Of a stretch of DNA of 64,000 nt, positions 14,773 to 25,430 are shown piece after piece. The DNA is from Pseudomonas fluorescens (lineage in GTDB: Bacteria; Pseudomonadota; Gammaproteobacteria; Pseudomonadales; Pseudomonadaceae): the NCBI RefSeq assembly GCF_902497775.2, contig NZ_OZ024668.1, positions 2,689,826-2,753,825 of the forward strand, read 5' to 3'. The number at the start of each line of letters is the position of its first letter. The stretch's first letter is position 1. The notes below the pieces were generated by a model. It ran no database searches and was not told the origin of the DNA. It saw only the letters and a program-made list of their open reading frames with translations. A program made the translations under genes and the position numbers.

Positions 14773-16293
14773 TTACTTGAGGCGCAAACGCCTGGCCAGC
14801 TTGTGCAGGTTGCTCGGATCGACCGCCAGCAAACGCGCAGCGCTGGCCCAGTTGTCGCCACTCAGGCGCAGGGCCTGGAGGATGGCCTGGCGCTGACAGG
14901 CATCGACGGCGGCGCTCAGGGAGCTAAACGCCAAGCCAGGTTGCGCCGGCGCATCCACCTGCGGCGCCAGGGCCGGTGCGCTGTCCAGATCAAGCACCTC
15001 GGGCTCCAGGCTGATGATCAGATTGCGACTGCCCTCGCGGCTCAACTGCTTGAGCGCGGCGCGGCTGATCACATGCTCAAGCTCGCGCACATTGCCCGGC
15101 CAGTGGTAAGCCAGCAGCGCCCGCTCGGCCGCCGCCGACAGGCGCAAGCCACGCAGGCCCAGGCGCGTGCGATTGAGTTCGAGAAACTGCCCGGCAATCA
15201 TCAGGACGTCGTTGCCACGCTCGCGCAGCGGTGGGATCGGCACCGGGTACACCGACAAACGATGGTACAGGTCGGCGCGAAACAGGCCGTCGCGAATGCT
15301 GTCGGGCAAGTGCCGGTTGGTGGCGGCGATGATGCGCACGTCCACATGCAGCGGCTTGTCGGCGCCCAGGCGCTGGATCTCGCCGTTCTGCAGGGTGCGC
15401 AACAGCTTGGCCTGGACGCTCAGGGGCAGCTCGCCGACTTCATCGAGAAACAGCGTGCCGCCGTTGGCCGCATCGAAGCGCCCGGCGCGGTCGCTGCTGG
15501 CGCCGGAGAACGCACCTTTGACGTGGCCGAACAGCTCGCTCTCGGCCAGGGACTCGGGCAAGGCCGCGCAGTTGACCTGGATCAGCGGCTTGTGGCTGCG
15601 TCGCGACAAGCGATGCAGACGGCGGGCGAACAGCTCTTTACCGACTCCAGTCTCGCCCAACAGCAACACCGGCAGCTCTGAATCCGCCAACACCTCCAGC
15701 TCGTTGAGCAACTGTTGCAGCACCGCGCTGTGGCCAAGAATCTCGCCCTCCTCCAGCGGACTGCGCAGGTCCTGGGGCGCGCTGCGCGACAGGCGCAGGC
15801 TGCGGCTTTCCTGCTCCAGGCGCGTGACCCGCAGGGCCGCTTCGATCTGCAGGGTGCAGCGCTTGAGCTCATCGCGGGCGTCGCTGTCGAAAGTCCCGGG
15901 CTGCAACGCATCGAGGGTGATCGCGCCCCAGACCTGGCCCTCGACATAGAGGCTGACGCCCATGCAGTCGTGCACTGCCAAAGGCTCGTGCAGCGCGGTA
16001 TCGAGCAGGCCATCGTAGGGGTCCGGCAGGCGGCTGTCGGGCTCGAACCAGGTCGGCTCGCGCGAGGCCATAATGGCGGCCAGGCGCGGATGCTGGGCGA
16101 TCACGAAGCGCCTGCCGAGGGCTTCATGGACCAGGCCGACGGTCGCCTGCGGGCGCAGGCTGTCACCCTCAAGGCGCAACAGGCCGACGGCGCCGCAGTT
16201 GAAGTATTCGCGCAGGGTTTGCACCAGGCGCTGCAAGCGCACGGCATTGGGTAACTCGACGATCAGGTCGGCGGCCAGGCTTTCACGCAACAT
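14773..16293 (-). CDS. norR: NO-responsive sigma54-dependent activator NorR
   Basis: About 506 aa. N-terminal GAF domain (non-heme iron NO sensor in the family); central AAA+ domain with Walker A GETGVGKE, the sigma54-contacting GAFSGA loop (ELFGHVKGAFSGA) and Walker B GGTLFLDEVGEL; C-terminal Fis-type HTH (NWASAARLLAVDPSNLHKLARRL). In-frame starts exist at 16305 (GTG), 16302 and 16293 (ATG). I prefer 16293 because AGAGGG is about 11 bases away, against only 2 for 16302, and it leaves the adjacent GGT-N7-ACC site just outside the coding region. It is divergent from the hemerythrin-like gene. Confidence 0.93.
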   Translation of the reverse strand: MLRESLAADLIVELPNAVRLQRLVQTLREYFNCGAVGLLRLEGDSLRPQATVGLVHEALGRRFVIAQHPRLAAIMASREPTWFEPDSRLPDPYDGLLDTALHEPLAVHDCMGVSLYVEGQVWGAITLDALQPGTFDSDARDELKRCTLQIEAALRVTRLEQESRSLRLSRSAPQDLRSPLEEGEILGHSAVLQQLLNELEVLADSELPVLLLGETGVGKELFARRLHRLSRRSHKPLIQVNCAALPESLAESELFGHVKGAFSGASSDRAGRFDAANGGTLFLDEVGELPLSVQAKLLRTLQNGEIQRLGADKPLHVDVRIIAATNRHLPDSIRDGLFRADLYHRLSVYPVPIPPLRERGNDVLMIAGQFLELNRTRLGLRGLRLSAAAERALLAYHWPGNVRELEHVISRAALKQLSREGSRNLIISLEPEVLDLDSAPALAPQVDAPAQPGLAFSSLSAAVDACQRQAILQALRLSGDNWASAARLLAVDPSNLHKLARRLRLK

Positions 16294-16350
16294 GGTAGTC
16301 ATCACCCTCTGTGGTTATCGCTACCCTGAGGTATGCGGGTAGATTTCACC
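16294..16350. promoter_or_regulatory. Cluster of three NorR-type sites (GGT-N7-ACC)
   Basis: Three 13-mers fit the published NorR consensus GGT-N7-ACC: 16294-16306, 16313-16325 and 16338-16350, with centres 19 and 25 bases apart. NorR works from tandem upstream sites. The last site ends 42 bases before the -24 GG of a sigma54-type promoter. The first abuts or overlaps the norR start, so autoregulation is possible. Confidence 0.8.
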
Positions 16351-16369
16351 ATAACCACGGCGACGGCCC

Positions 16370-16383
16370 TTGATTTCGGGCAA
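16370..16383. promoter_or_regulatory. Degenerate ANR/DNR-like box before the hemerythrin gene
   Basis: TTGATTTCGGGCAA has a perfect left half and a 3-of-5 right half of TTGAT-N4-ATCAA. It lies between the NorR sites and the sigma54-type promoter. It may be fortuitous. Confidence 0.3.
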
Positions 16384-16389
16384 GTAAAG

Positions 16390-16406
16390 CTGGCATGAGC
16401 GATGCA
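16390..16406 (+). promoter_or_regulatory. Sigma54 (-24/-12) promoter for the hemerythrin-like gene
   Basis: CTGGCATGAGCGATGCA matches YTGGCACGRNNNTTGCW at all but two fixed positions and keeps the GG-N10-GC spacing (GG 16392-16393, GC 16404-16405). With upstream NorR sites it forms a complete NO-inducible promoter. Predicted transcription begins near 16417, which rules out an ATG at 16402 and supports the start at 16447. Confidence 0.75.
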
Positions 16407-16446
16407 ATTACCCCTGGGATCCTTCGCAACCAGAGCAGGCATCCTG

Positions 16447-16896
16447 ATGAACCCGAACGAACTGATCGCCCATATCCTCTCGCGCTACCACGACCGCCAC
16501 CGCCAGCAACTGCCGGAACTGATCCGCCTGGCCCGGCGCGTGGAGCAGGTTCATGGCGGCCACGAACAGTGCCCCAACGGCCTGGCCGACCACCTGCAGG
16601 ACATGCAGCAGGAACTTGAAGGGCACATGCTCAAGGAAGAACAGGTGCTGTTCCCGATGTTGCAACGCGGCATGGGCCGCCAGGCGGGTGCGCCGATCCA
16701 GGTGATGCGCATGGAGCATGACCAGCATGGCGAGGCGCTGGCGCACCTGATGCAGCTTACCCGCGACATCTCCGCGCCGGATGGTGCGTGCAATACCTGG
16801 CGTACCCTGTACCGAGGGCTAGAGGAATTTCGCGAAGATTTGCTGCAGCACATCGAGTTGGAGAACGACGTGCTGTTCACCAACGCCTTGGCTTGA
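16447..16896 (+). CDS. Hemerythrin-like di-iron protein (NorA/DnrN/YtfE C-terminal type)
   Basis: 149-aa cytoplasmic hemerythrin-domain protein. Iron-ligand candidates: His residues in HGGHEQCP and ADHLQD, HMLKEEQVLFP (HxxxE), RMEHDQHGE and HIELENDVLF (HxxxE). NorA of Ralstonia and YtfE/DnrN are related di-iron proteins linked to NO binding and repair of nitrosative damage. Those have an additional N-terminal ScdA-type domain, absent here, so this is a short form. ATG 16447 is chosen because the sigma54 promoter places the transcript start after the upstream in-frame ATG at 16402. Divergent from norR, as expected for its target. Confidence 0.82.
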   Translation: MNPNELIAHILSRYHDRHRQQLPELIRLARRVEQVHGGHEQCPNGLADHLQDMQQELEGHMLKEEQVLFPMLQRGMGRQAGAPIQVMRMEHDQHGEALAHLMQLTRDISAPDGACNTWRTLYRGLEEFREDLLQHIELENDVLFTNALA

Positions 16897-17412: not shown

Positions 17413-18603
17413 TTAACCAGGGTGCCCGTCAACCCGGGCGCGCAACAGCATCGGCGCATAGCGCCAGGCATACAAGGCAAACGCCAGCACCCAGCACACG
17501 CCCGCCAGCCACAAACCGCCCAGCGGCAGCCACAGCACCAGCAGCACCCGGCTGACCCCGGCCAGGTTGAGCAAGAAGAACGCCAGGGTCATCCCCGCCG
17601 GCGGCTGCAACGCCCGCCCGGTGTGGCCGAGGCTGACCCGGGCGATCATCGCCAGGATCAACCCGGCCATGGCGCCGATGGTCAGGCAATGCACGGCCAG
17701 GCTCGGGTTCAGCGCCACGCCGAAATGCCACAGGGCCATGCCCAGGCACGCCAGCACCAACCAGCCATAGGCCAGGTGCAGCGACCACAGCAGCGGTACC
17801 CGCCACAGCCCGTGGTCATACCAGCGCCACAGGCGCAGGGCGTGCCCGAACACCAGGGCGGCAAACAGCACGCCGATCCCGGCATGGGCCGTCAACGCCG
17901 ACCCTGCCGCATACAGCATCGCCACCAGCGCCGAGCCCGCCAGCAGTAGCCAGTCAAGCCAGGGCCAGGGCACGACCGCCGTGGTCCGCCCCAAGCCGCG
18001 CTGGGTAAAGAACGGAATCACCCGCCCACCAATCAGGCCCATCATGGCCCCGACCAGCCAGATGCCGCCGAGCACGCCCTGGCGCTGCCACCCGTCGTGG
18101 CCATGCACCACGCCATACACAGCCAGGCCATCGACTGCCGTGAGCAACAGCAAGACCATCACGATCGGGTAATTGCGCTTCTGCCGCACGCGCCACAGGG
18201 TACTGGCCATCAACACCGCCACCAGCAGCGGGAAGCCCAGCTCCAGCAGCGCCAACAATGGCCAGGGTGCATTCGCCAGCCACGCCACTCGCCCGGCCAG
18301 CCACAGCAACGCCAAACCGGCCAGCGGCTTGCCGCTCAGGCCCGGTTGCCCGGTCCAGGTCTGCACCGCTGTCAGCAGAAAGCCGGCAATGATCGCCAGG
18401 CCAAAGCCGAACACCAGTTCATGCCGATGCCAGGCCAGCCAGCCCCCGGCCGGCTGCCAGTTGCCCAGCGATCCGTTCAAGGCCGACAGCCACAAGGGAA
18501 TGGCCACCACCGCCAGGCCACAGCCGGCGAGGAACATCGGTCGGAACGCCAGGCGCAGCAGCGGCGTAATGGCCAGCGCTTTTCGGCGATCAAGAACTTG
18601 CAT
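17413..18603 (-). CDS. nnrS: NnrS family heme/copper membrane protein
   Basis: 396-aa polytopic inner-membrane protein with about 12 hydrophobic segments. NnrS hallmarks: LLRLAFRPMFLAG near the N-terminus, WHRHELVFGFGLAIIAGFLLTAVQTWTG split over the first helices, GGRVIPFFTQRGL and HCLTIGAMAGLILAMIARVSLGHTGR. NnrS proteins protect against NO stress in other bacteria. I use ATG 18603 (MQVLDRRKALAITPLLR), preceded by AAGGAGAGG; the frame is open to 18693 but lacks a site there. Divergent from dnr across a region with NorR-type sites and a minus-strand sigma54-type promoter. Confidence 0.92.
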   Translation of the reverse strand: MQVLDRRKALAITPLLRLAFRPMFLAGCGLAVVAIPLWLSALNGSLGNWQPAGGWLAWHRHELVFGFGLAIIAGFLLTAVQTWTGQPGLSGKPLAGLALLWLAGRVAWLANAPWPLLALLELGFPLLVAVLMASTLWRVRQKRNYPIVMVLLLLTAVDGLAVYGVVHGHDGWQRQGVLGGIWLVGAMMGLIGGRVIPFFTQRGLGRTTAVVPWPWLDWLLLAGSALVAMLYAAGSALTAHAGIGVLFAALVFGHALRLWRWYDHGLWRVPLLWSLHLAYGWLVLACLGMALWHFGVALNPSLAVHCLTIGAMAGLILAMIARVSLGHTGRALQPPAGMTLAFFLLNLAGVSRVLLVLWLPLGGLWLAGVCWVLAFALYAWRYAPMLLRARVDGHPG

Positions 18604-18679: not shown

Positions 18680-18693
18680 TTGTCGCACGTCAA
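18680..18693. promoter_or_regulatory. Possible ANR/DNR box upstream of nnrS
   Basis: TTGTCGCACGTCAA: two changes from TTGAT-N4-ATCAA, 77-90 bases before nnrS. It lies downstream of the start predicted from the sigma54-type promoter, so it might serve a second promoter. Confidence 0.4.
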
Positions 18694-18744: not shown

Positions 18745-18760
18745 TGCAAAGGTTGTGCCC
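18745..18760 (-). promoter_or_regulatory. Candidate sigma54 promoter directed at nnrS
   Basis: On the minus strand GGGCACAACCTTTGCA keeps GGCAC and TTGCA with exact GG-N10-GC spacing (GG 18759-18758, GC 18747-18746). It lies about 140 bases before nnrS, on the nnrS side of the NorR-type cluster at 18795-18851. Confidence 0.6.
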
Positions 18761-18794
18761 TGGCGTGATTGTGGGCTGAAGTCGACAGGCTCAG

Positions 18795-18851
18795 GGTAAA
18801 AATGACCCTTTCATGGTCAATGGCACCTTATAGCCCTGGGTGTTTTTCACC
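18795..18851. promoter_or_regulatory. Second cluster of three NorR-type sites (GGT-N7-ACC) between nnrS and dnr
   Basis: Three GGT-N7-ACC 13-mers: 18795-18807, 18815-18827 and 18839-18851, centres 20 and 24 bases apart, against 19 and 25 in the norR cluster. The last ends 42 bases before the -24 GG of the dnr promoter, the same distance as at the hemerythrin promoter. A TGACC-N7-GGTCA inverted repeat (18803-18819) spans the inner halves of the first two sites. Confidence 0.78.
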
Positions 18852-18890
18852 CTGACGTAGCAGCGCGCCAGAAAACACGGGGCTTGCCGC

Positions 18891-18907
18891 CTGGCCCGGC
18901 TCTTGCT
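18891..18907 (+). promoter_or_regulatory. Sigma54 (-24/-12) promoter for dnr
   Basis: CTGGCCCGGCTCTTGCT matches YTGGCACGRNNNTTGCW at every fixed position but one, with GG (18893-18894) and GC (18905-18906) 10 bases apart. Predicted start is near 18918, about 60 bases before dnr. No good FNR-type box was seen in the dnr promoter region. Confidence 0.75.
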
Positions 18908-18977
18908 CGATCAGTACATCCTGGTCCAAGCCCTTGGTCCAAGCTCTGCCCCTTTTCCCGCTTGAGGATGAATCGCC

Positions 18978-19661
18978 ATGGTGCTTCACCGCGTCCACCA
19001 CCAGATCTTGCGCACTCACCACCTGTTCGAGCCGTTGAACGACGAGCAGCTCGACGAGCTGATGGGCAGCAGCCAGTTACTCAGTGTCGACAAGGGCGAC
19101 CCACTGTTCCGCCAGGGCGAGCCGGCCGAGGCGTTCTACTTCGTGATCGCCGGCGCGGTGAAAATCTACCGCTTGACCCCGGACGGCCAGGAGAAAGTCT
19201 TCGAAGTCATCGGCCCGCGGCAGACTTTCGCCGAAGCAATGATGCTGATGGACACCCCCAACTACGTCGCCTCGGCTGAAGCGGTCGGGCAATCGCAGCT
19301 GTATCGGCTGTCGACCAGCACCTACATGCGCCTGCTACAGAGCAATGGCCGGCTGACCTTCGCCCTGCTGGGCAAGCTGTGCGTGCGCCTGCACCAGCGG
19401 GTCAACGAGATCGAGACGCTGTCGCTGAAGAACGCCACCCACCGGGTGGTGCGCTACCTGCTGACACAACTGATGCATGCGCAACCGGTGGAGCCGCAGT
19501 TCGAATTGCCGATGGCCAAGCAACTGATCGCCGGGCATTTGTCGATCCAACCGGAGACCTTCTCGCGGATCATCCGCCGCTTGATTGATGAGAAGATCAT
19601 CACCCAGGACGGCCGGCGCATCGCCATCCTCGATCGACCGCGCCTGGAGCAGTTCGAATGA
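18978..19661 (+). CDS. dnr: NO-sensing transcription regulator DNR
   Basis: 227-aa CRP/FNR-family activator, closely similar to P. aeruginosa DNR: HHLFEPL near the N-terminus, FRQGEPAEAFYFVIAG, KIYRLTPDGQEK, DTPNYVA, then IETLSLKNATHRVVRYLLT and the HTH LIAGHLSIQPETFSRI. It has no FNR-type cysteine cluster; DNR binds heme and responds to NO. It should act on TTGAT-N4-ATCAA boxes before norC, nirS and others here. GAGG precedes ATG 18978. It overlaps dnrP by 4 bases. Confidence 0.95.
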   Translation: MVLHRVHHQILRTHHLFEPLNDEQLDELMGSSQLLSVDKGDPLFRQGEPAEAFYFVIAGAVKIYRLTPDGQEKVFEVIGPRQTFAEAMMLMDTPNYVASAEAVGQSQLYRLSTSTYMRLLQSNGRLTFALLGKLCVRLHQRVNEIETLSLKNATHRVVRYLLTQLMHAQPVEPQFELPMAKQLIAGHLSIQPETFSRIIRRLIDEKIITQDGRRIAILDRPRLEQFE

Positions 19662-19849
19662 ACGCCCTGCCCGTGTGCCTGTACTGCGAACACACCAACC
19701 CGGCCAAGGCCAGCACCTGCGAGCACTGCGCCATGCCCCTGCCGGCCACCGCCGCGTTGGCCGGGGCGCGGCAGCAGTTGCGCTTTCTGTGGTTTTGCAT
19801 CGGCCTGACGCTGTTCTGCGTGGCGATGGTGTTCTGGTTGCCGCGCTAG
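19658..19849 (+). CDS. dnrP: Small zinc-ribbon membrane protein, DnrP-like
   Basis: 63 aa. The N-terminal half has two CxxC pairs (CLYC and CEHC, 12 residues between) typical of a zinc ribbon; the C-terminal half is one membrane helix (FLWFCIGLTLFCVAMVFWL). Translationally coupled to dnr through an ATGA overlap. Pseudomonad genomes name such proteins DnrP after their place; the role is unknown. Its stop overlaps the stop of the convergent norD gene. Confidence 0.78.
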   Translation: MNALPVCLYCEHTNPAKASTCEHCAMPLPATAALAGARQQLRFLWFCIGLTLFCVAMVFWLPR

Positions 19850-23692: not shown

Positions 23693-23706
23693 TTGATGGC
23701 AATCAA
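23693..23706. promoter_or_regulatory. ANR/DNR box upstream of norCBD
   Basis: TTGATGGCAATCAA, an exact TTGAT-N4-ATCAA palindrome, 58-71 bases before norC, as expected for the DNR-dependent nor promoter. Confidence 0.85.
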
Positions 23707-25416: not shown

Positions 25417-25430
25417 TTGATCGCCGTCAA
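25417..25430. promoter_or_regulatory. ANR/DNR box between nirQ and nirS
   Basis: TTGATCGCCGTCAA, one change from the palindrome, in the 199-base divergent region. It is 105 bases before nirS and 82 before nirQ, and may serve both. No second box was seen. Confidence 0.78.

Follow-up and report, generated by a model that had tools for sequence, protein, structure and literature searches.

A predicted NorR/sigma54 control module shared by dnr and nnrS in Pseudomonas fluorescens and many of its relatives

The denitrification regulator gene dnr and the neighbouring NO-protection gene nnrS appear, judging from sequence, to share one NO-triggered control site in many soil and plant pseudomonads. In the usual model DNR stands below the oxygen sensor ANR, and low oxygen turns dnr on. 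In the window analysed here (64,000 nucleotides of the Pseudomonas fluorescens contig NZ_OZ024668.1, positions 2,689,826 to 2,753,825), positions 18745-18907 quite probably constitute a bidirectional NorR/sigma54 module, through which NorR1, the product of the norR gene of the locus, together with NO would drive dnr and nnrS; DNR would then activate norCBD. The sequence, geometry, conservation and NorR1 association of the module were computed, and co-induction of the genes in P. donghuensis is published; NorR1 binding, NO as the effector in this strain and the DNR-to-nor step are what we infer.

NorR1 is encoded on the reverse strand (14773..16305). It contains GAF and sigma54-activation domains (Pfam) and scores 686.7 bits against the NCBIfam NorR equivalog model (cut-off 476); the GAF, AAA+ and DNA-binding parts of a NorR are thus all encoded in the genome, as judged by NCBIfam and Pfam. 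The stretch LPDPYDGL, which we take to hold the iron ligand D99 of E. coli NorR, is identical between the two proteins. Their sigma54-contact motifs read GAFSGA (NorR1) and GAFTGA (E. coli), and GAFSGA is found in 143 of the 144 norR loci inspected, a tally that treats the named and unnamed copies from one species as separate entries. On the forward strand, ytfE (16402..16896) encodes a YtfE/DnrN-like di-iron repair protein (Pfam hemerythrin, E = 2.2e-26; NCBIfam YtfE, 239.7 bits, under the cut-off of 254), whose true start is probably further in, since the listed start of the open reading frame overlaps the promoter. The NO-tolerance membrane protein gene nnrS (17413..18603, reverse strand; Pfam NnrS, E = 5.5e-104) is divergent from dnr (18978..19661, forward strand). 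DNR is a Crp/Fnr-family regulator that aligns over its full length (residues 3-227 of 227) with 3dkw, the solved P. aeruginosa DNR (E = 1.7e-92), of which it is the orthologue. A 63-residue open reading frame (19658-19849) overlaps the dnr stop and is seen in the same place in many relatives; its match to a double zinc ribbon is weak (E = 0.0045) and below cut-off.

Three GGT-N7-ACC sites, all exact, precede dnr (18795-18807, 18815-18827 and 18839-18851; spacing 20 and 24) and form a predicted NorR enhancer array about 2.5 kb from the NorR1 gene. Downstream of the array lies a predicted sigma54 promoter facing dnr, TGGCCCGGCTCTTGCT (18892..18907, forward strand), with one mismatch to TGGCACG-N4-TTGCW and with the GG-N10-GC pattern (-24 GG at 18893, GC at 18905). 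The -24 GG falls 42 positions past the last base of site 3, leaving 41 bases between them. A second predicted array, with sites at 16294, 16313 and 16338 (spacing 19 and 25), stands before ytfE together with a sigma54-like site at 16391-16406 (two mismatches; whole element 16294..16406, forward strand), the GG of which is likewise 42 from the last NorR site. The first-pass annotation had reported the three sites before dnr, a near-consensus sigma54 promoter behind them and a geometry nearly copying that of the norR/hemerythrin region, all of which is borne out. Its coordinates and distances for the locus hold, but it overlooked the divergent nnrS and the sigma54-like site facing that gene, GGGCACAACCTTTGCA (18760-18745, reverse strand, two mismatches). 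Since dnr faces nnrS and this second site points to nnrS, one array probably serves both genes. Because site 1 of the ytfE array (16294-16306) covers the listed norR start (16305), NorR1 may repress its own gene.

Single GGT-N7-ACC sites are common in the window (31 against 12.4 expected), and sigma54 matches allowing two mismatches do not exceed chance (14 against 19.6 expected), so that neither element is evidence by itself. The window contains two triplets of GGT-N7-ACC sites spaced 17-27 bases apart, and 1000 dinucleotide shuffles produced none. Throughout the 5.97 Mb genome, these two are the only perfect triplets at exact 20/24 or 19/25 spacing, and both adjoin norR. The E. coli norVW promoter served as positive control for this reading of arrays.

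A dnr gene was identified in 88 of 398 genomes of the genus (E <= 1e-60), and all 88 loci were examined. Conservation in relatives had been put forward as a check on the dnr array, and the array is indeed kept in 70 of the 88 (63 with zero mismatches in the 18 specified bases, five with one, two with two). These counts come from a mismatch-tolerant scan; a strict scan misses arrays with a single change (G205, G114, L041 and L047). A sigma54 site lies 41-44 bases past site 3 in 68 of the 88 genomes, and in G169 and G006, where the array is present, an intact TGGCCCGGGTCTTGCT is found farther away. By layout, the array is present in 63 of 73 loci with divergent nnrS and dnr, 7 of 8 with dnrS upstream (dnrS-..-dnr), none of three with ytfE-dnr and none of four with other arrangements. 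In the 35 loci that share the 20/24/41 geometry exactly, the majority base accounts on average for a fraction of 0.995 in half-sites, 0.979 in specified promoter bases, 0.771 in the promoter N4, 0.737 in the N7 cores and 0.629 in the spacers.

Named loci (the best 80 of 157) overlap the unnamed genus set, and the two counts are not summed. The array is present in 68 of these 80, with the promoter in place in 65; P. donghuensis, P. wadenswilerensis, P. chlororaphis PCL1601, P. brassicacearum and P. frederiksbergensis are among them. The other 12 of the 80 best matches include the P. marginalis, P. veronii, P. cedrina, P. lactucae and P. rhodesiae types, and full-length norR is absent from the locus stretch in all 12. 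Outside the genus, a strict scan of 80 of 87 dnr hits found no array between dnr and the next known upstream gene, and the two arrays that it did find (L223 and L224) precede ytfE, not dnr. In the family genus g15, presumably Stutzerimonas, an array stands before ytfE in 48 of 48 loci with ytfE upstream (43 with a sigma54 score over threshold), and dnr lies downstream on the same strand. NorR and dnr are neighbours more widely, and dnr's own array was seen only in the genus of the window.

A conserved membrane-type leader open reading frame of 29 residues (like MKKVIQPLAWFVVLTSVLALASGVSLGLV) lies between the sigma54 site and dnr in relatives, for example L136 and L020. It is exactly 29 amino acids long in 62 of 73 nnrS-dnr loci, with differences by codon position of 13606/5838/21128, and other loci encode longer proteins with a similar start. 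Pfam returned nothing for the 29-residue leader or for a 172-residue relative, and no such frame was found at the corresponding place in the window (18908-18977).

Occurrence of the array follows that of NorR1, for which a full-length copy was defined by at least 77% identity and at least 450 residues. Such copies are present in 64 of the 80 dnr-positive genomes searched and in five more that were scored from the locus; these five belong to the eight of 88 genomes outside the NorR search, the remaining three of which, all array-bearing, were left without a NorR1 score. At E <= 1e-190, NorR1 is found in 67 of 80 dnr-positive genomes versus 2 of 80 dnr-negative ones, the latter sampled from 310. 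Within the nnrS-dnr layout the array occurs in 60 of 60 loci with full NorR1 (58 with the promoter in place) and in none of ten without NorR1; the corresponding figures for the dnrS-dnr layout, in which nnrS is not adjacent, are 7 of 7 and 0 of 1. In two genomes of ytfE-dnr layout, G258 and G240, NorR1 is present although dnr is not directly preceded by an array; G258 has one before ytfE. The NorR of four genomes with other arrangements is more distant (62-67% identity), and these lack an array. Fisher's p for array against NorR1, with kinship ignored, is 1.7e-10, which overstates the test because losses of the array and of NorR1 fall on few branches; on the dnr tree the array label needs four changes. 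Joint loss looks separate at least twice, in a fluorescens subclade and in G069, which is placed beside G187 (support 100/98). Within a subclade lacking the dnr array, three loci (L141, L133 and L151, in G304, G101 and G004) have beside ytfE a norR that matches only residues 171/177-510 and is without the NO-sensing GAF part, a natural sensorless NorR.

Published RNA-seq data for P. donghuensis P482 exposed to tomato exudate (PMC10256816) give log2 changes of +6.36 for ytfE, +6.13 for hmp, +4.99 for nnrS, +4.44 for norC, +4.19 for norD, +4.18 for norB and +3.23 for dnr. The trigger in that experiment was the exudate, external NO having been inferred by the authors, who state that nir genes were not induced. 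In the available parts of the paper norR and dnr are placed in this cluster, without NorR control of dnr being proposed. The change for norR was -1.67 (log2) while its neighbours rose, an observation that touches the suggested self-repression of norR. P482 is outside our genome set; the array and promoter are present in P. donghuensis HYS (L036), of the same species.

Before norC, the window has a perfect FNR/DNR box, TTGATGGCAATCAA (23693..23706, no mismatch), and a scan for NorR triplets at this place found none, a combination that fits a route from NO through NorR and dnr to nor. Sequence does not account for the lack of nir induction, as nirS too has a box, TTGATCGCCGTCAA (25417..25430), with one mismatch. 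The amplifier originally envisaged, running from NO through NorR, sigma54 and dnr to nir and nor, therefore stands in part: norCBD rose with dnr in P482, but nir was not induced (PMC10256816). Its upper portion, in which NO acts on dnr via NorR and sigma54, gains support from the conservation of array, spacing and promoter, from the NorR1 association and from the reported P. donghuensis co-induction. In P. aeruginosa biofilm given an NO donor, dnr is reported to change by -1.64 fold, with nir, nor and nos up (PMC13024080). In a family genome (G511) whose DNR is, by eye, about 98% identical to the P. aeruginosa DNR chain, the array is missing and a TTGCC-N4-ATCAA box stands at -75. The different dnr responses of P482 and P. 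aeruginosa fit this promoter difference, growth conditions also differing between the two.

We consider it unlikely that dnr owes its activation chiefly to the oxygen sensor ANR, or to DNR itself, in the manner described for P. aeruginosa, with the NorR module a minor input. In its favour, dnr is reported among ANR-modulated genes in P. aeruginosa (PMC13024080), and array-less relatives of nnrS-dnr layout keep a TTGTC-N4-ATCAA-type box between nnrS and dnr. The window scan, however, found no FNR box with up to two mismatches between the two genes, such as an ANR-controlled dnr promoter of the P. aeruginosa type would have, in keeping with the earlier remark that dnr has no good FNR-type box. 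The best match between them, TTGTCGCACGTCAA (18680..18693), is degenerate, with three mismatches; it is 76 bp away from the start of nnrS and is part of an element that relatives retain on their nnrS side. The box of the array-less relatives is this same nnrS-side element, present with or without the array, and these relatives consequently look like deletions of the NorR module. A regulatory swap, in which a new FNR box replaced the array, was considered for them and rejected on finding the same box on the nnrS side of array-bearing genomes. An FNR-like box is found at 30-130 bp from nnrS in all 73 loci (up to three mismatches, a loose threshold without chance control), and for this reason DNR or ANR may also act on nnrS. 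FNR-like matches with up to two mismatches occur within 160 bp before dnr in 10 of 63 array loci, and the window has none at that place. The very strong conservation of array and promoter is also hard to explain for a minor input. Given that no FNR box is found at dnr here, it is plausible that control of this gene would be separate from oxygen sensing.

An array serving nnrS alone, with the dnr-facing sigma54 sequence incidental, we regard as very unlikely. It is true that nnrS is described as a NorR-type target elsewhere (Rodionov 2005, PMC1274295), that its reported rise in P482 exceeds that of dnr (PMC10256816), and that a sigma54 site facing it occurs somewhere between the two genes in 62 of 63 array loci of nnrS-dnr layout. 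Yet the dnr-facing site is fixed at 41-44 bases from site 3 in 61 of the 63, whereas the distance of the best nnrS-facing site from the array varies (within 120 bp). In loci where dnr has another neighbour than nnrS, it is still preceded by array and sigma54 site (7 of 8), and among the 20 of 80 dnr-negative genomes with nnrS, G032 alone has a perfect array, plus an 84% identical NorR1. That the dnr array is worked by a second NorR paralogue rather than by NorR1 is likewise very unlikely. The paralogue (about 52% identical to NorR1) is encoded in the same genome, at G000:347822-349336, and could bind the array, and hmp, perhaps its target, is reported to rise in the P482 experiment (PMC10256816). 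However, all 12 genomes scored as without full NorR1 still have a match at E <= 1e-140, and none of them has the array, the occurrence of which goes with NorR1 and not with the paralogue. Distant nnrS copies (50-54% identical; L276-L281), in genomes without NorR1, carry upstream a different type of triplet, AGTC-N5-GACT-like with 21/25-26 spacing, which resembles the E. coli sites and is perhaps that of the second paralogue, of other specificity.

In the preferred reading, a bidirectional module worked by NorR1, the protein would bind the three sites of the 18795-18851 array and, on sensing NO, drive transcription by sigma54 polymerase in both directions from that one array, towards dnr and towards nnrS. 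DNR, described as NO-responsive itself (Rodionov 2005, PMC1274295), would then activate norCBD via the perfect box at 23693, so that NO alone could raise DNR and NO reductase. The nir genes would require a further input, and in P. donghuensis the NO-producing arm would seem to need one, as nir was not induced there. A wider reading, on which our judgement is evenly balanced, makes NorR1 a denitrifier-specific NorR that puts DNR under NO control, one array firing two divergent sigma54 promoters. On this reading NorR1 and DNR, each responsive to NO, would together make up an NO-only feed-forward cascade. The cascade would recruit the respiratory NO reductase for detoxification, even in air and without NO production by nir, and would replace the oxygen-first ANR-dnr cascade across much of the genus. 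If NorR and sigma54 control dnr in the fluorescens, putida and chlororaphis groups, these bacteria could ready their denitrification regulator in response to NO from plants or neighbours, without any anoxia and through two NO sensors acting in series, which bears on NO and N2O release by root-associated bacteria. Relatives that have lost both NorR1 and the array provide a natural control for such a circuit.

The regulators, sites and promoters involved are known; the wiring itself was not found described. Openly accessible literature yielded no paper proposing NorR control of dnr, and an earlier prediction in subscription papers or regulon databases is possible. The module resembles E. coli norR-norVW, which likewise has three tandem GT-N7-AC sites (spacing 21/24) and a sigma54 promoter adjoining norR. 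However, the E. coli target is an NO reductase and not a regulator, there is one promoter and not two, and site 3 lies 55 bases from the -24 GG as against 41 at dnr in the window. The Stutzerimonas-like g15 loci (ytfE-..-dnr) likewise have a NorR array in front of ytfE, and dnr follows farther down that strand, but no array directly precedes dnr. Many of them show an FNR-type box about 90-100 bp before it. NorR targets listed in Rodionov 2005 (PMC1274295) comprise norVW, norB, hmp, hcp, nnrS and dnrN. Those in pseudomonads (nnrS, hmp and dnrN) have the same type of regulator, sites and sigma54 promoters, and nnrS and dnrN are in the present locus, whereas the available parts of that study do not list dnr among the NorR targets. 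The P. aeruginosa ANR-to-DNR cascade is alike in placing dnr above the nir, nor and nos genes. There, however, dnr is reported to be ANR-modulated and not raised by an NO donor (PMC13024080), while dnr in the window is preceded by a predicted NorR/sigma54 module in place of an FNR box.
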